IMG/VR virus record: IMGVR_UViG_3300046002_009774
Span: 1-37,758 of that record
DNA length: 37,758 nucleotides
Strand: one strand, 5' to 3'
Source of the DNA: a virus
Under the pieces are notes generated by a model. That model saw only the letters and a list, made by a program, of their open reading frames with translations, searched no databases and had not been told where the DNA came from. Shown one piece after another: positions 18,235 to 32,700 of this stretch; positions within the stretch are counted from its first letter, which is position 1, and each line of letters opens with the position of its first letter. Both the position numbers and the translations under genes were made by a program.

Positions 18235-20162
18235 TGGCTTTAATTAAAATATTTTCTACAGCAGGAATCGAAATTGAGTATAAGAAAGATTCACTTACTT
18301 TAAAAAAAGAAAACAATTCGTTGTCTTCAGATTTTAAAGTACCACATTCTTCCTTTCCGTTTTTGGTAATTGAAAATGATATTACAAAAAACATACTGGG
18401 TTCTTCTGATATTACTTCTATTAGAAAGAATAAAATAGTTCCGGTTGTTATTTTAGAAAACGGAGTTCGTTATTATGGTGAGCTTCAACAATTAACGGTG
18501 CTTCCAAAATTCAGAAAATGCAATCTAAAATATGGCTCCGATATTATTCCAATAGTAAATAAAAAGATTGCCGAATTTTTACCAAGCGTTTCTGTGATAC
18601 CAGGAGAAACTTCTCCAATTCCATTTACAGAAGAAAGCACCGAAGTAATTACAGGAAATGAATATTGGGAAACCTTTCCAGTTGCAATGATCGGTCAAAT
18701 ATATCCTGATGTAAAATTTAATTTCCCAACAATGTATTGGTTAAATAAATATGGTGTAGGATTAGAAAGCACAGATCCTTGGTATGCTTATCAAAACCAT
18801 ATTAATAATTTTGGAACCAATGCATTAGATGAAACTATATTTTTATTAAATACAGGGGAAGTAGTTGGCTCAACAGTTACGGTTATCAATAAAAATGTGG
18901 CCGTTCCGCATTTATTCATTTTAACACCACTGCATTATATTTTCACTTCATTAGGTTGGAAAATTTCAGGCGATTTTACTACCCATGAATTGATTAAAAG
19001 ATTAATGATGGTTCCAAAAAAGGACAATGTTTCTAAAACTATGTTAGCTCCTGCACCTGAAAGTGTTACTTTTCCAACTTCACCAACTTGGACTTATATT
19101 GATCCTCCAGGAACGGGCATTAATTATTATAGAACAATAATTACAAAATATATTTCCATAGCAGGAAGATATAAGTTAATTTATAACTTTGAAATTGCCC
19201 CTGTTATTATTTCATCAGAATATCCACGTGCTAGATTTTACGCAAATCCTGCTGGTGATGAAAATAGTTTTTTTGCTTTTAGTGAATGGGTTCAAAGAGC
19301 ATCTGGTTCGCCAAACATTATTCTTTCTGGAGAAGTAGAATTCGATTCAGAAGTTGGTAATTGTTTGTTTTTTTATGATTTTCCTTATGTTGAATTACCT
19401 GTAAATTATTCAATTAATTTAACTTACTTAGGTGATGAAAAAGAATTCAGTCAAATGCATCCCACAATTGAATTAGGTAGATATGCGCCTGATTGGTCAG
19501 TTGGAAACTATTTGAATTACATTAAAAATCAATTCAATTTAGATATTACGTTGGATGATTTTAAAAAAGAAATTACTTTGAATTTGAATGAAGAAATAGT
19601 ATTAAATGAAACGCCTGCTATTATTTCGCAATCCCTAACAATGAAATCCTACGATATTGCAGCCAACTCTTCATTTGTTTTAAAATATGAAAATGAAGAA
19701 GATATAGCCTTGTTTATAAGTCAGGATGAAATCGTTACTTATACAAATCAAGATGATGATTTCACTAAAAAAATAGAATCTAAGTTTAAAATATTACCTC
19801 GCAATGGATATACTTCTATTTTATCAGAAGATATTAATGACAAAGAAGGAGTGGGTTTAGTAATTTATGATGAATCTACCGCACCATTTACTGCAGAATC
19901 AACAGAAAACGGATTCAATTTAAATATACCAGGAACAAAAGGAATTTATGAAACCTTTTTCCGTAGATGGATTAAGTTTTTACTGAATGCATCTAATTGT
20001 GAAGTGGTTGGTTATTTTACAGAAACCGAAATTTCCAAAATAAATAAAGCGAAGGCAGTTTACATAAACAACCAACGCTTTAGAATTATTGATGTTGAAA
20101 CAACAGAAGCTTCAAACAACTATCAAGAAGTAAAAATGAAATTATTAAGTGTTAATTATTAA
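18234..20162 (+). CDS. putative tail tip / baseplate protein
   Basis: 642 aa, the last rightward tail gene. Beta-rich, with YGELQQLTVLPKFRKCNLKYG early and a C-terminal region (VYINNQRFRIIDVETTEASNNYQEVKMKL) reminiscent of hub or tip proteins. Its 3' end overlaps the 3' end of the convergent integrase gene by 18 nt, so there is no room for a separate terminator between them. Confidence 0.6.
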   Translation: MALIKIFSTAGIEIEYKKDSLTLKKENNSLSSDFKVPHSSFPFLVIENDITKNILGSSDITSIRKNKIVPVVILENGVRYYGELQQLTVLPKFRKCNLKYGSDIIPIVNKKIAEFLPSVSVIPGETSPIPFTEESTEVITGNEYWETFPVAMIGQIYPDVKFNFPTMYWLNKYGVGLESTDPWYAYQNHINNFGTNALDETIFLLNTGEVVGSTVTVINKNVAVPHLFILTPLHYIFTSLGWKISGDFTTHELIKRLMMVPKKDNVSKTMLAPAPESVTFPTSPTWTYIDPPGTGINYYRTIITKYISIAGRYKLIYNFEIAPVIISSEYPRARFYANPAGDENSFFAFSEWVQRASGSPNIILSGEVEFDSEVGNCLFFYDFPYVELPVNYSINLTYLGDEKEFSQMHPTIELGRYAPDWSVGNYLNYIKNQFNLDITLDDFKKEITLNLNEEIVLNETPAIISQSLTMKSYDIAANSSFVLKYENEEDIALFISQDEIVTYTNQDDDFTKKIESKFKILPRNGYTSILSEDINDKEGVGLVIYDESTAPFTAESTENGFNLNIPGTKGIYETFFRRWIKFLLNASNCEVVGYFTETEISKINKAKAVYINNQRFRIIDVETTEASNNYQEVKMKLLSVNY

Positions 20163-21347
20163 GATGCTATCCATGTTCAAAATTTGCACATCAGTAACTG
20201 ATTCGGCAATGTGAACGTAAATCATAGTATCTTCAATTTTAGAGTGGCCAAGTAATTTTTGAAGTACCGTTACATTTCCACCCGAAATAAGAAAATTAGT
20301 TGCAAACGTGTGTCGTGCTACATGGTACGACACATGTTTTTTTATTCCAGCCACTTTACAAATATCTTTTAATGTTCGGTTTATGTGTTCTGCTGAGTGT
20401 TTTCCTTCAAACAAAACTTTATTTCCAATGAATTGTTGCGCTGATTTGTTTAATTGAATACGTTGCAGCTTATTTGTTTTTTGCGCCACAAAAACTAAAT
20501 AATCGCCAATTACGTTTTCAGTACTTAATTCCTGAATATCTGAAATTCGCAATCCGGTAAAGCAAGAAAAAAGAAAACGAGACAAAACGCTTTTGTGTAT
20601 ATCATTAATAAACTTACTATTCCAATATTCAAACAAAGTATTAATTTCATCAGGCATCAAGAACGTGCGATGCGATTTAAAGTTGGTTCTTTTTATTTCT
20701 CCGCTTTGTAGTGGCACTTTAATTCCTCTTTCGGTAGCAATGTTCAAATACTTTTTAAAGTTCTTGAAAAACGTTCCAATGGTGTTTTCTCCGTTTTTCT
20801 TTTTCACTTTTAAAAATCGAGTAATATTTTCAACTTCCTGTTTGTTTATTTCGTAGAAGTAAAGCGTTTCTTTGTATTCTTTCAATTTTCCTAAAGCCGA
20901 TTTTTGTTGGCGATACGTTCCAGTCTTTAAAGTATCTTTTTGTCTATCCAGTTCTTCGCCCCAAAACTTAACAAAGCAAATCCATGAGCTTGGGTTTAAA
21001 ATCTCGTTTGTTAGTTTATCAATATCTAAAACCACATTAGAAAGTCTGTAGTTGATTTCAATGGTATTAATATCAGCCAAGAACTTTTCAATTATTAAGT
21101 TATAGTCTTTGTGATGTTCAAATTTCACAGAAACACGTTGTTTCGAATTATCAAACATTTTCAAAGGAACCGATAAGTTTATAGGAAATAATTTTTTCTT
21201 ATTATTCAAAAATACTTGAACATAAATAGCACTGGTTCCATCGTTTCTGATATAATCCTGTTTAATCTTTACTTTGTATGATAACTTCCCATTCATTTTT
21301 TGTGAGTACTTTATTGGATAGTTTATAGTGTTATTTTGAAGAATCAT
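20145..21347 (-). CDS. int: tyrosine site-specific integrase
   Basis: 400 aa from the ATG at 21347 (an alternative ATG at 21296 would remove 17 residues). The N-terminal ~100 residues resemble the arm-binding domain of Bacteroidota integrases; a core-binding SAM-like domain follows (~105-215). Catalytic residues are all present: R267 in FTGLRISD, H342 and R345 in YHVARHTF, H368 in LLGHSKIED, and nucleophile Y377 in TMIYVH. It inserts and excises the phage at attP/attB, which makes the phage temperate. Transcribed opposite to all late and early genes. Confidence 0.95.
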   Translation of the reverse strand: MILQNNTINYPIKYSQKMNGKLSYKVKIKQDYIRNDGTSAIYVQVFLNNKKKLFPINLSVPLKMFDNSKQRVSVKFEHHKDYNLIIEKFLADINTIEINYRLSNVVLDIDKLTNEILNPSSWICFVKFWGEELDRQKDTLKTGTYRQQKSALGKLKEYKETLYFYEINKQEVENITRFLKVKKKNGENTIGTFFKNFKKYLNIATERGIKVPLQSGEIKRTNFKSHRTFLMPDEINTLFEYWNSKFINDIHKSVLSRFLFSCFTGLRISDIQELSTENVIGDYLVFVAQKTNKLQRIQLNKSAQQFIGNKVLFEGKHSAEHINRTLKDICKVAGIKKHVSYHVARHTFATNFLISGGNVTVLQKLLGHSKIEDTMIYVHIAESVTDVQILNMDSILIINT

Positions 21348-28939: not shown

Positions 28940-29467
28940 ATGGCAACAATAGGCAAATATGGGAAAGTTATTTTTTCAGAAAACGACATCCAATTTATAA
29001 AAGACAATTTTCAATCCATGACTAACCAAAAGATTGCAGATGCTTTAGGTTTAAAAATAACATTGGTAAGAATGAAAGCTTACGAATTAGGATTGCAAAA
29101 AATAGAATTAGAATATTGGCCAGAACCAGCAGTTCAATTTTTAAAAGAAAATTATCACAGAATTGGTGATTGTGAATTGGCTCGAATGTTTAACGAGAAG
29201 TTTCCAAAAAATAAAAATTGGACCGCAAAGCACATTCAAAAAAAAATGGCTTACTTAAAATTAAAAAGGAGCAAACTGAATTGGTTTTTCATTAAAGAAA
29301 GAAATAGAGACAATGGTAGTTATGGTAAAAAAAACATCAAAAACAAACCCGAACCACCCAAAGCTTATTTCTATATCAATTCAAAAACAAGAGTAGAAAT
29401 TAAACCAGGACAAAGTGTTGAACAATTAAAAGAAAAATACCATGCAATTATCAGTAACAATCGTTAG
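28940..29467 (+). CDS. DNA-binding-like protein with two HTH/Myb-like repeats
   Basis: 175 aa from the ATG at 28940. Two similar helical units: residues ~13-52 (IQFIKDNFQSMTNQKIADAL, then GLKITLVRMKAYELGLQK) and ~61-110 (VQFLKENYHRIGDCELARMF, then KHIQKKMAYLKLKRSK). Both follow the pattern of an HTH whose last helix ends in a basic LGLQK/LKLKR segment, suggesting an internal duplication. The C-terminus is basic and Pro-rich, then YINSKTRVEIKPGQSVEQLK. A regulatory or replication DNA binder by inference. Overlaps the DUF3127 gene by 26 nt. Confidence 0.65.
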   Translation: MATIGKYGKVIFSENDIQFIKDNFQSMTNQKIADALGLKITLVRMKAYELGLQKIELEYWPEPAVQFLKENYHRIGDCELARMFNEKFPKNKNWTAKHIQKKMAYLKLKRSKLNWFFIKERNRDNGSYGKKNIKNKPEPPKAYFYINSKTRVEIKPGQSVEQLKEKYHAIISNNR

Positions 29468-29717
29468 AATTTTAGAAACAAAAGAAATCGGAGAAAAGCA
29501 ATTCAAAGTAAGAGAGCTTCATGTGGACACAGACGAACAATACACACAGCGTTTAGCAGTTCAGTTTACGCAAGATAAATGTGCGCTCCTGGATAACTTT
29601 AAACCAGGTGAAAAAGTAAAAATAGACATCAACCTAAAAGGAAGAGAAGCCAACAACAAAGAAGGAGAACCAGTAGTGTATAATACCATTCAAGGTTGGA
29701 GGATTGAGAAGGTGTAA
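29442..29717 (+). CDS. DUF3127-like putative ssDNA-binding protein
   Basis: 91 aa. Matches the short Bacteroidota DUF3127 pattern: LAVQFTQDKCALLDNF, then KPGEKVKIDINLKGREANNK and a closing YNTIQGWRIEKV. The fold is thought to be OB-like, so single-strand DNA binding in replication is likely. Last conventional gene of the replication operon; the repeat array begins right after its stop. Confidence 0.75.
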   Translation: MQLSVTIVRILETKEIGEKQFKVRELHVDTDEQYTQRLAVQFTQDKCALLDNFKPGEKVKIDINLKGREANNKEGEPVVYNTIQGWRIEKV

Positions 29718-29725
29718 TTGCTGGA

Positions 29726-29845
29726 TAACGGTTCCTTTGCTTGTAGCAGTAGCGAAGAAATCGGCAGATTTCGGATCGAACATAACAAGTACAAAACAAA
29801 ATTTAAATTAATTACTAACTAAGCTATTGCTACAAGCAAATGTTA
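29726..29845. repeat. array spacer 1: long hairpin between TAAC and GTTA
   Basis: TAAC at 29726-29729. Stem TTTGCTTGTAGCAGTAGC (29736-29753) pairs with GCTATTGCTACAAGCAAA (29823-29840) over 18 positions with one G-T pair. GTTA at 29842-29845. The loop holds ACAAGTACAAAACAAAATTT, which recurs almost unchanged in spacer 2. Confidence 0.85.
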
Positions 29846-29856
29846 ATAGCAGGCTT
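29842..29856. repeat. cassette 1 left terminus
   Basis: GTTAATAGCAGGCTT is the reverse complement, with one change in 15, of AAGCTTGCTATTAAC at 30135-30149, which directly follows the cassette's stop codon. Confidence 0.85.
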
Positions 29857-29872
29857 TAAAAACATAAAGATT

Positions 29873-30136
29873 ATGGAAATTATAACATTAGACAATCAAA
29901 AGATAAAATTAACAGATAGTTTCTTTTCAGTTATTAGTAAAATAAATAACTTTTTAAAAATAGAAGCGATATTATTGGAAAATGAACCTGAAATTGTAAA
30001 ATCAGCACCTGTTTTTAGATTTAAAAAATACGCAAAAATTTATAGCAAGGCATATAATTCCGCATTTGATAATGGAAAATCATTAGATGATTGTGAAAAA
30101 ATAGCTTTACAAAAAATTAAAAGCATTTTTGGTTAA
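29873..30136 (+). CDS. cassette 1 protein, unknown
   Basis: 87 aa from the ATG at 29873; an in-frame ATG at 29840 lies in the stem and the left terminus. Starts MEIITLDNQKIKLTDSFFSV and ends DCEKIALQKIKSIFG; helical and basic, no family recognised. Its TAA overlaps the right complementary terminus. No promoter is seen; it is probably transcribed from the replication operon. Confidence 0.65.
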   Translation: MEIITLDNQKIKLTDSFFSVISKINNFLKIEAILLENEPEIVKSAPVFRFKKYAKIYSKAYNSAFDNGKSLDDCEKIALQKIKSIFG

Positions 30137-30149
30137 GCTTGCTATTAAC
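30135..30149. repeat. cassette 1 right terminus
   Basis: AAGCTTGCTATTAAC, complementary in 14 of 15 positions to 29842-29856. It begins within the stop codon of the cassette 1 gene. Confidence 0.85.
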
Positions 30150-30153
30150 GTAT

Positions 30154-30272
30154 GGTGCTTTGCGAGGTTTTTCGGAACGAGAAACGCAAGCCTTTCAGAA
30201 CAAAACAAAAGATTACAAGTACAAAAACAAAATTAATATTAACCTAAAGCCGAAAATCATCGCAAAACACTT
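30154..30272. repeat. array spacer 2: long hairpin
   Basis: GGTGCTTTGCGAGGTTTTTC and two further bases (30154-30175) pair with 30250-30271 (ending CGCAAAACACT): 18 Watson-Crick pairs, one wobble and three mismatches over 22 positions. The loop contains ACAAGTACAAAAACAAAATT, nearly identical to spacer 1. Confidence 0.8.
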
Positions 30273-30288
30273 GTTAGCAAATCGGCTT
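30273..30288. repeat. cassette 2 left terminus
   Basis: GTTAGCAAATCGGCTT is complementary to AAGCTGTTTGCTAAC at 30561-30575 (GTTAGCAAA and GCTT pair, with a small internal difference). Confidence 0.8.
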
Positions 30289-30304
30289 TTTAAAACACAA
30301 AAAT

Positions 30305-30562
30305 ATGTCAAATAAAAAAACACAATTCGGTCAATCATTAAAAGGAGATTTTGAAAAAAACACTTGGACTTTTGAAATGTTAGAAGATTTTAAATTAACA
30401 GCAGGAGATTTTGCTATTCTTCCAAAGATAGATTTTGAAGTATTAACAACTCTTATAGGAAGATTAAAATTAGCAATTTCACAAGATGAAAAAGCAAAAA
30501 TGAATAGTGAAATTACTTTATGCGTTTTCAAATTAAACGAATGTTTTGAAGATTTAGTTTAA
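30305..30562 (+). CDS. cassette 2 protein, unknown
   Basis: 85 aa, MSNKKTQFGQSLKGDFEKNT at the start. Mostly helical and acidic at the C-terminus. The leader TTAAAACACAAAAATATG resembles that of cassette 3, and the TAA again merges into the right terminus. No family recognised. Confidence 0.65.
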   Translation: MSNKKTQFGQSLKGDFEKNTWTFEMLEDFKLTAGDFAILPKIDFEVLTTLIGRLKLAISQDEKAKMNSEITLCVFKLNECFEDLV

Positions 30563-30575
30563 GCTGTTTGCTAAC
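30561..30575. repeat. cassette 2 right terminus
   Basis: AAGCTGTTTGCTAAC, complementary to the left terminus at 30273-30288. It shares the stop-codon-plus-GCT layout of the other two cassettes. Confidence 0.8.
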
Positions 30576-30580
30576 GTTTC

Positions 30581-30638
30581 GGTGCTTGTAGATGCCAGCC
30601 TACACGCATTTTATTTTCGGCTGGTATTTACAAACACC
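30581..30638. repeat. array spacer 3: long hairpin
   Basis: GGTGCTTGTAGATGCCAGCC (30581-30600) pairs with GGCTGGTATTTACAAACACC (30619-30638): 17 Watson-Crick pairs, two G-T pairs and one mismatch over 20, with an 18-nt loop. The changes are wobble-compatible when the top strand (or its RNA) folds. Confidence 0.88.
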
Positions 30639-30639
30639 T

Positions 30640-30654
30640 GTTATAAGAAGTAGC
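30640..30654. repeat. cassette 3 left terminus
   Basis: GTTATAAGAAGTAGC is complementary in 14 of 15 positions to GCTATTTCTTATAAC at 30857-30871. Confidence 0.85.
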
Positions 30655-30677
30655 GGGTATAAACACAAAAAGTAATT

Positions 30678-30857
30678 ATGGAATGGATTGAATTTTTAGA
30701 AGAAAAACCAAAAGAAAGCGATTTTTATTTTGTTAAAGGTAAAAAAGGGTCAAAGGCTTGTTTATATTATTATGCAGAATCAGAAGAATGGGAAATTGGT
30801 AGTTTAGCACATAATCATTTTGCTGATAGTCAAATATGTTGGTTAAAAGAATCGTAG
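30678..30857 (+). CDS. cassette 3 protein, DUF551-like
   Basis: 59 aa, MEWIEFLEEKPKESDFYFVK at the start and CWLKES at the end. The Trp-Ile start, YYYAESEEWEIGS middle and closing W-L resemble the small DUF551-type phage family of unknown function. The TAG stop overlaps the right terminus. Confidence 0.6.
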   Translation: MEWIEFLEEKPKESDFYFVKGKKGSKACLYYYAESEEWEIGSLAHNHFADSQICWLKES

Positions 30858-30871
30858 CTATTTCTTATAAC
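30857..30871. repeat. cassette 3 right terminus
   Basis: GCTATTTCTTATAAC, complementary in 14 of 15 positions to 30640-30654. It starts at the last base of the stop codon. Confidence 0.85.
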
Positions 30872-30875
30872 AGTC

Positions 30876-30946
30876 TGATTGGCGCTCGTTTTAATGGCGC
30901 CAATCATTTGTTAAAACTTTCGGCACTATTACTTGCACGTTAAAAC
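30876..30946. repeat. array spacer 4: hairpin and duplicated GTTAAAAC
   Basis: Perfect 10-bp stem TGATTGGCGC (30876-30885) / GCGCCAATCA (30897-30906). Then GTTAAAAC at 30910-30917 and again at 30939-30946. The second copy continues as ACTTGTAGCG. The spacer looks partly degenerate or rearranged, and no matching right terminus was found for a fourth cassette. Confidence 0.7.
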
Positions 30947-30987
30947 ACTTGTAGCGTACTTAGACATACAATTAAAAAGCAAAAATT

Positions 30988-31116
30988 ATGATACGAGTTA
31001 TGAAATGCAAGCGCACTAATAAAGTTACCTTCTACAAAAACGGAAACCAAGTATTCCCAACAAGCATAAAAGGAAACATCGCAACCTTTAGCACCGGAGA
31101 ATTAATACTAATCTAA
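30988..31116 (+). CDS. small protein at array end, 42 aa
   Basis: MIRVMKCKRTNKVTFYKNGN at the start, then beta-prone QVFPTSIKGNIATFSTGELILI. Ends 21 nt before a strong terminator. Base use (more C) differs from the three cassette genes. No family recognised. Confidence 0.55.
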   Translation: MIRVMKCKRTNKVTFYKNGNQVFPTSIKGNIATFSTGELILI

Positions 31117-31137
31117 ACCAAAACCCACAACCAACAC

Positions 31138-31164
31138 AAACCGCCACACAAGGCGGTTTTTTTT
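31138..31164 (+). terminator. terminator closing the early region
   Basis: Stem AAACCGCC-ACACAA-GGCGGTTT (31138-31159) followed by a run of T. It separates the rightward early genes from the iteron region. Confidence 0.9.
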
Positions 31165-31348
31165 ATTCTAACACGATGGACTAATGGAACTATCAAATTC
31201 AAAATACAAGGGCGCAAATCAAACGAAAAGCAGTAATTCCCAACATAACCAACACACCACCCACACAACGCCACTCAAACTCCCCCGAACCCCCTAAAAT
31301 TAAAAATTTTTTCCAAAAATTTTTTTTTCAAAAAATATAGAGGTTTTC

Positions 31349-31595
31349 AGTTCCAAAAGTTCCACAATCCCACAAAGAACTTATTACTATAGATATAATC
31401 TATACTATATATTTAATAATCAATATATTAAGTCTAAATAAGTACTGTGGAACTTTCTTAAAATTCTGTGGGATTTTTGTGGGATTTGTGGAACTATTTT
31501 TTTGAGTTCCAACAAAAAACACCTAGTTCCCACAATTTCCTACTACTTGTGGAACTTTAAAACGTTGATTTTCAATGTTGTGGAATTGTGGAACT
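31349..31595. repeat. iteron cluster TGTGGAACT
   Basis: Forward TGTGGRAYT-like copies start at 31446, 31467, 31478, 31487, 31548, 31579 and 31587. Reverse AGTTCC(C)ACA-like copies start at 31349, 31358, 31505 and 31525. Four forward copies read exactly TGTGGAACT (31446, 31487, 31548, 31587), two read TGTGGGATT (31467, 31478) and one TGTGGAATT (31579). A further partial copy lies at 31185. Confidence 0.85.
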
Positions 31596-31630
31596 CTTTT
31601 TTTGAAAATAAGCTAACATATTTATAAATT

Positions 31631-31676
31631 TTACAAACTTTTTTGTTTGTAATTATCCTTAAAAATCGTATTTTTA
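31631..31676 (+). promoter_or_regulatory. host-like promoter with palindromic operator
   Basis: Inverted repeat TTACAAAC-TTTTTT-GTTTGTAA (31631-31652) overlaps a TTTG box (31646-31649). After 19 nt, TATTTTTA (31669-31676) is close to TAnnTTTG. The next ATG is at 31696. Confidence 0.5.
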
Positions 31677-31695
31677 CTATTAAACCTTTGAAAAT

Positions 31696-32157
31696 ATGAT
31701 AGTTATCTCTATTCCTGTAAAGCTACACGTAAAAAAATACCTGATCCATCGTTATGGAGTAGTGCATCAGGTAAGTAAAAAGACATTTATTGGTTTGTTT
31801 TTACTGCAACTGCTCGAAAAGAAAATCGAAAAGCCAGAAAAAGAAGCAGGAAAAGGAAGCTTCTATGAAATTGAGGTTCCGGAATTCTATTTTAATGCCA
31901 AAGGTTATAGCATTGACCGCAATAAATTGAAGTTTTTATCTGTATGCCTAGAGCGTTTGTTCTTTGAAGACTTCTATTCGTTTGTGGATAATGAGTTGTG
32001 TAAAGGCGATTTGAATGCAAAAAAAGCAATTCGTTTGTTTTTTAGTATTTATGATATTTCCGAAAATGAACTCAATCAGGATTCTATGTACCGAAATTAC
32101 CAGCGTTATTGCGGTGAAAAAATTAAGCATAAAAAACAAAATAAAGTAAACGTATAG
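31696..32157 (+). CDS. unknown protein next to iterons (initiator or regulator candidate)
   Basis: 153 aa, basic, with an N-terminal VISIPVKLHVKKYLIHRYG, a helical middle (SIDRNKLKFLSVCLERLFFEDFY) and a strongly basic end (CGEKIKHKKQNKVNV). Its promoter carries a palindrome, and eleven iterons lie just upstream, so it may bind them as replication initiator or late regulator. No initiator motif is recognised. The 73 nt that follow hold no gene. Confidence 0.65.
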   Translation: MIVISIPVKLHVKKYLIHRYGVVHQVSKKTFIGLFLLQLLEKKIEKPEKEAGKGSFYEIEVPEFYFNAKGYSIDRNKLKFLSVCLERLFFEDFYSFVDNELCKGDLNAKKAIRLFFSIYDISENELNQDSMYRNYQRYCGEKIKHKKQNKVNV

Positions 32158-32230
32158 TAAAAAAACAGCCTTAAACCTTATAAATAAAGGTGGCAAAAAG
32201 CGACAGTTCTATAAAAATAAATTTTAAAAT

Positions 32231-32698
32231 ATGACATTTTCTTGTGATGAGCAACTTTCCGGAGTTGCCGAATTAGATTTTTTCCTTTTAGAGGAAGTTA
32301 GCAATTGGCCTGAAATACTTTCCGATAGTAATTCGGCACAATTGGAGTTCAATCCATCGGTTCATTCCGTTGAAGCGGTTATCAAACCAGATAGTATTTC
32401 GGTTCCAAACAACAAAACCAATAAGAATTTTGGTATTGCGCACGCTATTTCCATAAAAATGGAATTCTTAACGCGTTCTGAAGCATTGGAACAACTCTTG
32501 GAACAGTACGAAAAGAAACCCGGAATTGCACGCGCGAAATTCAATAACGGATTCCAAAAAATTTATGGTTCCAATACCGAACCTTTGTATCTGATCTATG
32601 AAGATGTTCCAGGAACAAAGATTGATGGAGAAGGAGCAACTGTAATTGAAATTAAAGGAGAAACCGCCAATAGACCAGTGTTTTATACGGTTTTATAA
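32231..32698 (+). CDS. unknown protein upstream of head genes
   Basis: 155 aa, acidic. FSCDEQLSGVAELDFFLLEE at the start, then a helical LTRSEALEQLLEQYEKKPG and a beta-rich C-terminus. Lies directly before the capsid unit but is separated from it by a late-type element and a 13-bp hairpin. A structural role is possible; no family recognised. Confidence 0.65.
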   Translation: MTFSCDEQLSGVAELDFFLLEEVSNWPEILSDSNSAQLEFNPSVHSVEAVIKPDSISVPNNKTNKNFGIAHAISIKMEFLTRSEALEQLLEQYEKKPGIARAKFNNGFQKIYGSNTEPLYLIYEDVPGTKIDGEGATVIEIKGETANRPVFYTVL

Positions 32699-32700
32699 GG

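Follow-up and report, generated by a model that had tools for sequence, protein, structure and literature searches.

The locus described here poses the question of whether a run of very small phage genes, each bounded by two ends complementary to one another and each set off from the next by a hairpin, is a set of integron-type cassettes, and which enzyme could move such units in a genome without an integron integrase. The window (by which we mean the whole stretch of DNA analyzed) is a virus record of 37,758 bases carrying phage genes, including that for the terminase large subunit, and is a Flavobacterium phage. On the evidence of sequence alone, we estimate a probability of about 0.83 that the array is an integrase-less set of three integron-type cassettes, with the recombinase most likely being supplied in trans by the host.

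Layout of the array, its hairpin sites and its paired ends

The array starts directly after a DUF3127/SSB-like gene (29442-29717) and consists of four hairpin sites and three small genes. The first cassette (29729..30148; this and the other array features lie on the plus strand) is delimited by inferred crossovers at TAA|C, its boundaries having been mapped on recurring units in other phages and hosts. Its attC-like hairpin site of the form TAAC-stem-GTTA (29726..29845) has a site score of 16, a closing TAAC/GTTA stem in the DNA fold and an E-value of 1e-13 with R1, a covariance model built from the hairpin that detects three of the sites in the window, and it moves together with the gene downstream of it. 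This gene (29873..30136) encodes 87 aa if it begins at the ATG at 29873, which is most likely the start and is favored over 29840 (98 aa). The second cassette (30149..30574), whose inferred crossovers were mapped in the same way, combines an attC-like hairpin site (30146..30276; R1 E=8e-12) with a gene for 85 aa (30305..30562), and the third (30575..30870, again between inferred crossovers) combines an attC-like site of a short-loop type (30572..30643; R1 E=8e-7) with a gene for 59 aa (30678..30857). The short-loop hairpin is common to many phages, in which it stands before the same end word, and has a homologue in phage 6H. None of the three cassette proteins matched a known family above the cut-off, and a scan of viral contigs for proteins related to that of cassette 2 gave none. 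The array has a fixed right end, in the position of an attI, formed by a further hairpin (30868..30913; DNA fold z -5.0), which is retained beside another cassette in the relative L005 and with compensatory changes in the stem in L027.

A first-pass annotation of this DNA had proposed that the spacers between TAAC and GTTA fold as hairpins, and this was borne out by a search of the window for the TAAC-stem-GTTA pattern, which returned four sites at a score of at least 10 (29726-29845, 30146-30276, 30572-30643 and 30868-30913), and by covariation in the stem. At a score of at least 13 there were three real sites versus none in six shuffles. The consensus of 36 aligned sites is TAACGTTTCGnnGCTTTnnGnAGTTGnGG ... 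CCnCAATTGnnnAAAACCnnTGTTA, and RNAalifold predicted 22 pairs in these sequences, with compensatory changes in 16 of the 22. The hairpin contains two conserved mismatches, C.A and G.T; in integron attC sites, extrahelical bases are found at comparable places. The base of the TAAC/GTTA stem is closed by the plus strand alone in three of the four window sites, the minus strand being open, and in the array-end hairpin it is closed on both strands. The cassette part of the definition of an integron, namely one-gene units lying between hairpin attC-type sites with YAAC...GTTR cores, is met, and the window fits the CALIN layout (at least two attC-like sites with no integron integrase nearby), the IntegronFinder attC model not having been applied. 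R1 found no match on integron control loci, where our own scan also gave few canonical attC sites. Likewise, the window had no Rfam match at the gathering threshold, and nothing matching the array was recovered from the plasmids searched.

The three pairs of complementary ends reported earlier, GTTAATAGCAGGCTT (29842..29856) with AAGCTTGCTATTAAC (30135..30149), GTTAGCAAATCGGCTT (30273..30288) with AAGCTGTTTGCTAAC (30561..30575) and GTTATAAGAAGTAGC (30640..30654) with GCTATTTCTTATAAC (30857..30871), were all found at the same coordinates, as were the stop codons in or at the right terminus (30136, 30562 and 30857). Their anchored complementarity is 13, 11 and 13, respectively, the second pair including one extra, bulged base. 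Chance can be discounted as the source of this pairing: for randomly paired GTTA and TAAC ends from the rest of the window, a value of at least 11 has P = 0.0018 and one of at least 13 has P = 0.00012. The observation that the end words differ between cassettes and yet match within one extends well beyond the window, with a mean own-end score of 11.0 in 106 distinct units from related loci; ends taken from different units average 5.7, and the two ends on either side of a spacer 5.1. We noted a fixed flaw at position 11 of the match, where a G on the hairpin side lies opposite a T, and the entire design, including this mismatch, is common to 104 distinct phage units and 284 units from Flavobacterium chromosomes. 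The accompanying claim that the complementarity is twice as long as that of integrons proved unsafe, in that an aadA2 cassette of a class 1 integron (L178) has 12 complementary nt between its ends by the same test. Given this value and the small number of length controls (few canonical attC sites were available around ten IntI genes and in four plasmid integrons), we do not claim the length of ~15 nt as unique. The R boxes of usual integrons are 7 nt long.

Chromosomal arrays and the adjoining recombinase

The search of Bacteroidota genomes with the covariance model, which the first-pass annotation had put forward as a check, revealed that the same sites form large chromosomal arrays in Flavobacterium. 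R1 detects 117 sites in the genome of Flavobacterium croceum and 43 in that of another Flavobacterium, the number per genome ranging from 5 to 149 in 12 finished genomes, and across the phylum at least one strong site is present in 42 of 148 sampled Bacteroidota genomes. The largest array, with at least 149 sites over ~160 kb of one genome (G075:C1:3084605-3246516; L114, L128-L134), attains the size of a superintegron. The cargo of the host arrays is integron-like and includes Cass2 ('integron-associated'), GNAT, DinB, ParE, HepT and a CBASS-type cyclase.

In all 17 loci examined the array is adjoined by a tyrosine recombinase of a single type, which always lies at the same array end and has its 3' end facing the array in 15 of them, the other two (L116, L117) having a divergent arrangement. 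At 13 host loci we detected a putative entry site with the sequence YAAC|T[TA]GTnTATATGYRTGAC or a diverged variant of this, located mostly 96-108 bp from the recombinase stop, and the core YAAC|T[TA]GTnTATATG is conserved in most of these loci. Of the elements that define an integron, both a recombinase beside the array and an attI are accordingly met in host loci; the former is absent from the phage and the latter is not evident in the window. The array-end hairpin of the window has no sequence likeness to the host attI, and the array end does not clearly serve as one. In L022 (~1050-1110) the array end resembles the host attI (TATGCGCTAC...CGCATA...ACCCAAATTAGGGCGG), unlike that of the window.

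The candidate recombinase is ~347 aa long and has an extra N-terminal domain of ~75 aa; a 585-aa version with this domain apparently repeated was also seen (L105:1225-2982). Its best profile match is XerA (NF040815) and its best solved structures are PDB 5hxy and 4a8e. With the IntI model TIGR02249 it scores 182-212 bits, below the cut-off of 265, and the 150 Flavobacterium genomes screened contain no integrase above that cut-off. The spacing between the GKG and HxxRH motifs is 68-69 residues in 18 of these recombinases and 70-72 in XerA, against 110-111 in 11 IntI proteins, the IntI-specific insertion of ~42 residues being missing from the array recombinase. In a phylogenetic tree the 11 IntI proteins are monophyletic with a support of 100 and all 18 Flavobacterium enzymes fall outside them, with the tree leaving unresolved whether the latter form one clade. 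The best phage matches to the recombinase are all below 60% identity and include no Flavobacterium phage. The earlier statement that the phage has no integron integrase holds, the phage-type tyrosine integrase of the window (20145-21347, minus strand) belonging to another family. This protein, which has SAM_5 and Arm-DNA-bind_5 domains and scores 57 bits to TIGR02249, was considered as the enzyme acting on the array and set aside.

These data bear directly on the possibility that the array is a remnant of a classical IntI-type integron (a CALIN) that is moved by a true IntI. Phage integron arrays without an integrase, including one from the Polaribacter phage P12002L, are known to be recognized and used by IntI1 (Qi et al. 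2023, PMC9892861). The layout of our array is also that of a CALIN. We nevertheless regard this explanation as unlikely, given the lack of any integrase above the TIGR02249 cut-off in the 150 genomes, the absence of the insertion from the recombinase that lies beside the arrays, and the conserved C.A and G.T mismatches in place of the bulged bases of attC. The same absence also counts against our preferred reading, that of integron-type cassettes served by a host enzyme, because the recombinase is without an insertion that published work holds to be essential: it has been called necessary or essential for integron activity (PMC8138268), and PMC2426708 states the same necessity, citing Messier and Roy 2001.

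Movement of units and the orientation of their genes

The prediction that related phages would gain or lose whole cassettes was fulfilled: gene content at the array is not fixed, and the phages differ by entire units with breakpoints at (T/C)AAC. When the window is compared with its close relative L005, the flanks are 88.8% (29425-29710) and 92.1% (30850-32700) identical, and the contents between them have all been replaced. Where nearly identical units recur in different places, similarity breaks off immediately outside the left (T/C)AAC in 92 of the 154 informative host pairs and in 13 of the 19 phage pairs; on the right side it ends just past (T/C)AAC, so that the boundaries lie at the core site as the definition of an integron requires. 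Where the same gene occurs in several phages, the upstream hairpin is constant and the downstream one variable. The end word of cassette 3, CTGTTATAAGAAGTAGCGGGTA, is found exactly in 32 viral stretches and in close forms in sequenced Flavobacterium phages, and it is paired with many different genes. More generally, the units share their 5' leader and 3' end but enclose genes that are mostly unlike each other, with 84 protein clusters among 120 units; DNA methylases account for 12 of 76 phage cassette proteins. Taken with the chromosomal arrays beside a recombinase and the presence of phage-type cassettes in a Flavobacterium genome, these swaps support the original inference of a recombining unit moving between phages or host loci.

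Phage and host units differ strikingly in the orientation of their genes. In all 104 distinct phage units the gene shares the strand of the hairpin, whereas 269 of the 284 host units have it on the other strand, such that the hosts have the usual cassette order (gene, then site) and the phages the reverse. To assign orientation we took the longest open frame of each unit, and the strand of the site was set by the detector from the flanking bases, with the covariance model agreeing on the strand wherever both readings exist. The notion of a 'mirrored' integron with a hairpin 5' of every gene was rejected, being wrong for the hosts, whose genes are antisense to the model strand. In ~31 of 120 phage units (for example L003, L004 and L008) translation starts inside the hairpin loop, making part of the site coding and giving a variable N-terminal leader. 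The flip probably persists in phages because the transcript runs toward the attI end and only genes 3' of the hairpin are read.

Among the host units that depart from this rule, some resemble those of phages. A methylase cassette of F. croceum (L101:5442-6357; G001:C29) is flipped, is 60-62% identical to phage ones, has the same end word as L004 and L038, and adjoins an ordinary host cassette, which suggests exchange between the phage and host pools. In a Flavobacterium genome bin, an array (L099; G002:C46) was observed in which all three genes are flipped and one protein is 92.6% identical to that of phage L010; this array is probably a prophage.

The orientation data help to judge a further alternative, under which there is no current site-specific recombination, moron genes are shuffled by homologous phage recombination at similar spacers, and the end pairing is an RNA structure reflecting transcript-end protection or separate gene domains. 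The spacers are alike in sequence, phages do recombine homologously, the hairpins fold as RNA too and the recombinase is missing from the phages; indeed, part of the swapping could be due to phage homologous recombination at conserved spacers, which has to be weighed against the integron-type reading. As a full account it is improbable: the breakpoints fall at (T/C)AAC and are not scattered along the homology, and in the hosts, where genes run antisense to the strand that bears the structure, the end pairing is unchanged and so is the orientation of the mismatch at position 11. The latter finding ties the signal to the DNA site rather than to the transcript. The idea that the units are minute transposon-like elements or MITEs, with terminal inverted repeats of 15 bp and an unknown transposase, the spacers being independent palindromes, is hardly tenable, for while the ends are inverted repeats and identical ends enclose different genes, the repeat word changes from unit to unit where a constant repeat would be needed, units abut via hairpins with junctions at YAAC and no target duplication seen, the hairpin travels as one piece with the unit behind it, and the arrays adjoin a tyrosine recombinase near which an entry site is conserved.

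A proposed mechanism and its relation to known systems

Returning to the reading of the array as integron-type cassettes, the sites, end pairing, boundaries, phage swaps, linkage of recombinase and entry site, and flip can all be read from the sequences, and we propose a mechanism that would account for them. Each cassette would comprise an attC-like hairpin site and one small gene, bounded at (T/C)AA|C. A host XerA/Xer-like tyrosine recombinase is inferred to excise and insert cassettes at YAA|C by recombining attC and attI sites, its substrate presumably being a folded single strand, which in the phage would be the gene-sense strand that closes better. In an excised circle the pairing of ~15 nt between the ends would extend the hairpin by a long stem, and this longer stem, compared with that of the array form, could favor insertion over excision. 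The phage, without an enzyme of its own, may borrow the host recombinase, and phages may recruit cassettes from both host and phage pools. Neither circles nor empty sites were seen, and recombination itself is an inference and not an observation. A broader hypothesis, toward which we lean with only modest confidence, is that Bacteroidota have a second kind of integron, with a Xer-like recombinase that is devoid of the IntI domain and reads paired mismatches instead of flipped-out bases, and that phages keep a pool of cassettes with reversed genes, use the host enzyme and trade with host arrays.

The system resembles IntI integrons, such as those of class 1 and the Vibrio superintegrons, in the hairpin sites between one-gene cassettes, the (Y)AAC...GTT(R) core, the R''/R' pairing within a cassette, the attI-like site beside the integrase, the chromosomal arrays of 100+ cassettes and the integron-type cargo. 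It differs from them in having a recombinase that lacks the ~42-residue insertion and lies outside the IntI clade, mismatches for extrahelical bases, end complementarity of ~15 nt, and phage genes that are flipped relative to the site. Known Xer enzymes function in chromosome dimer resolution at dif-like sites. The array recombinase has its closest profile and structure among XerA/Xer proteins (NF040815; PDB 5hxy, 4a8e) and like them has no insertion in the catalytic domain, but is unlike known Xer in its extra N-terminal domain of ~75 aa and its position beside cassette arrays. With the phage CALINs of Qi et al. 2023 (PMC9892861), one of which is from a Bacteroidota phage, the phage arrays described here share an attC-like, integrase-less layout and DNA methyltransferase cargo; the main text of that study, in which the sites were tested with IntI1, contains no Flavobacterium phage, Bacteroidota recombinase or systematic flip. 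The 'atypical' integrons of Treponema (PMC3607928) also have the 3' end of the recombinase toward the array; however, they were reported with IntI, whereas the Flavobacterium enzyme is without the insertion.

IntegronFinder 2.0 reported one complete integron in Bacteroidetes (Salinibacter), with Flavobacteria not being mentioned, and our literature search, which left most subscription papers and preprints out of reach, found no description of a Flavobacterium integron or of this system. The prevailing view is that integrons require an integrase with a special domain, and surveys relying on that domain report almost none in Bacteroidetes. If our interpretation is true, Flavobacterium, and perhaps much of Bacteroidota, holds large cassette arrays that such surveys missed, and integron recombination runs without the 'essential' domain, so that the evolution of hairpin recognition from Xer enzymes could be tested directly. 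The phage arrays would then give small genes, DNA methylases among them, a path between phages and bacteria, and the phage and host arrays together would constitute a clean natural experiment in gene orientation.

To the right of the array, we also observed a non-coding segment of the window (31320-31610, before 31696) in which GTTCCAC/GTGGAAC is repeated many times in either orientation and which looks like an operator or iteron cluster.
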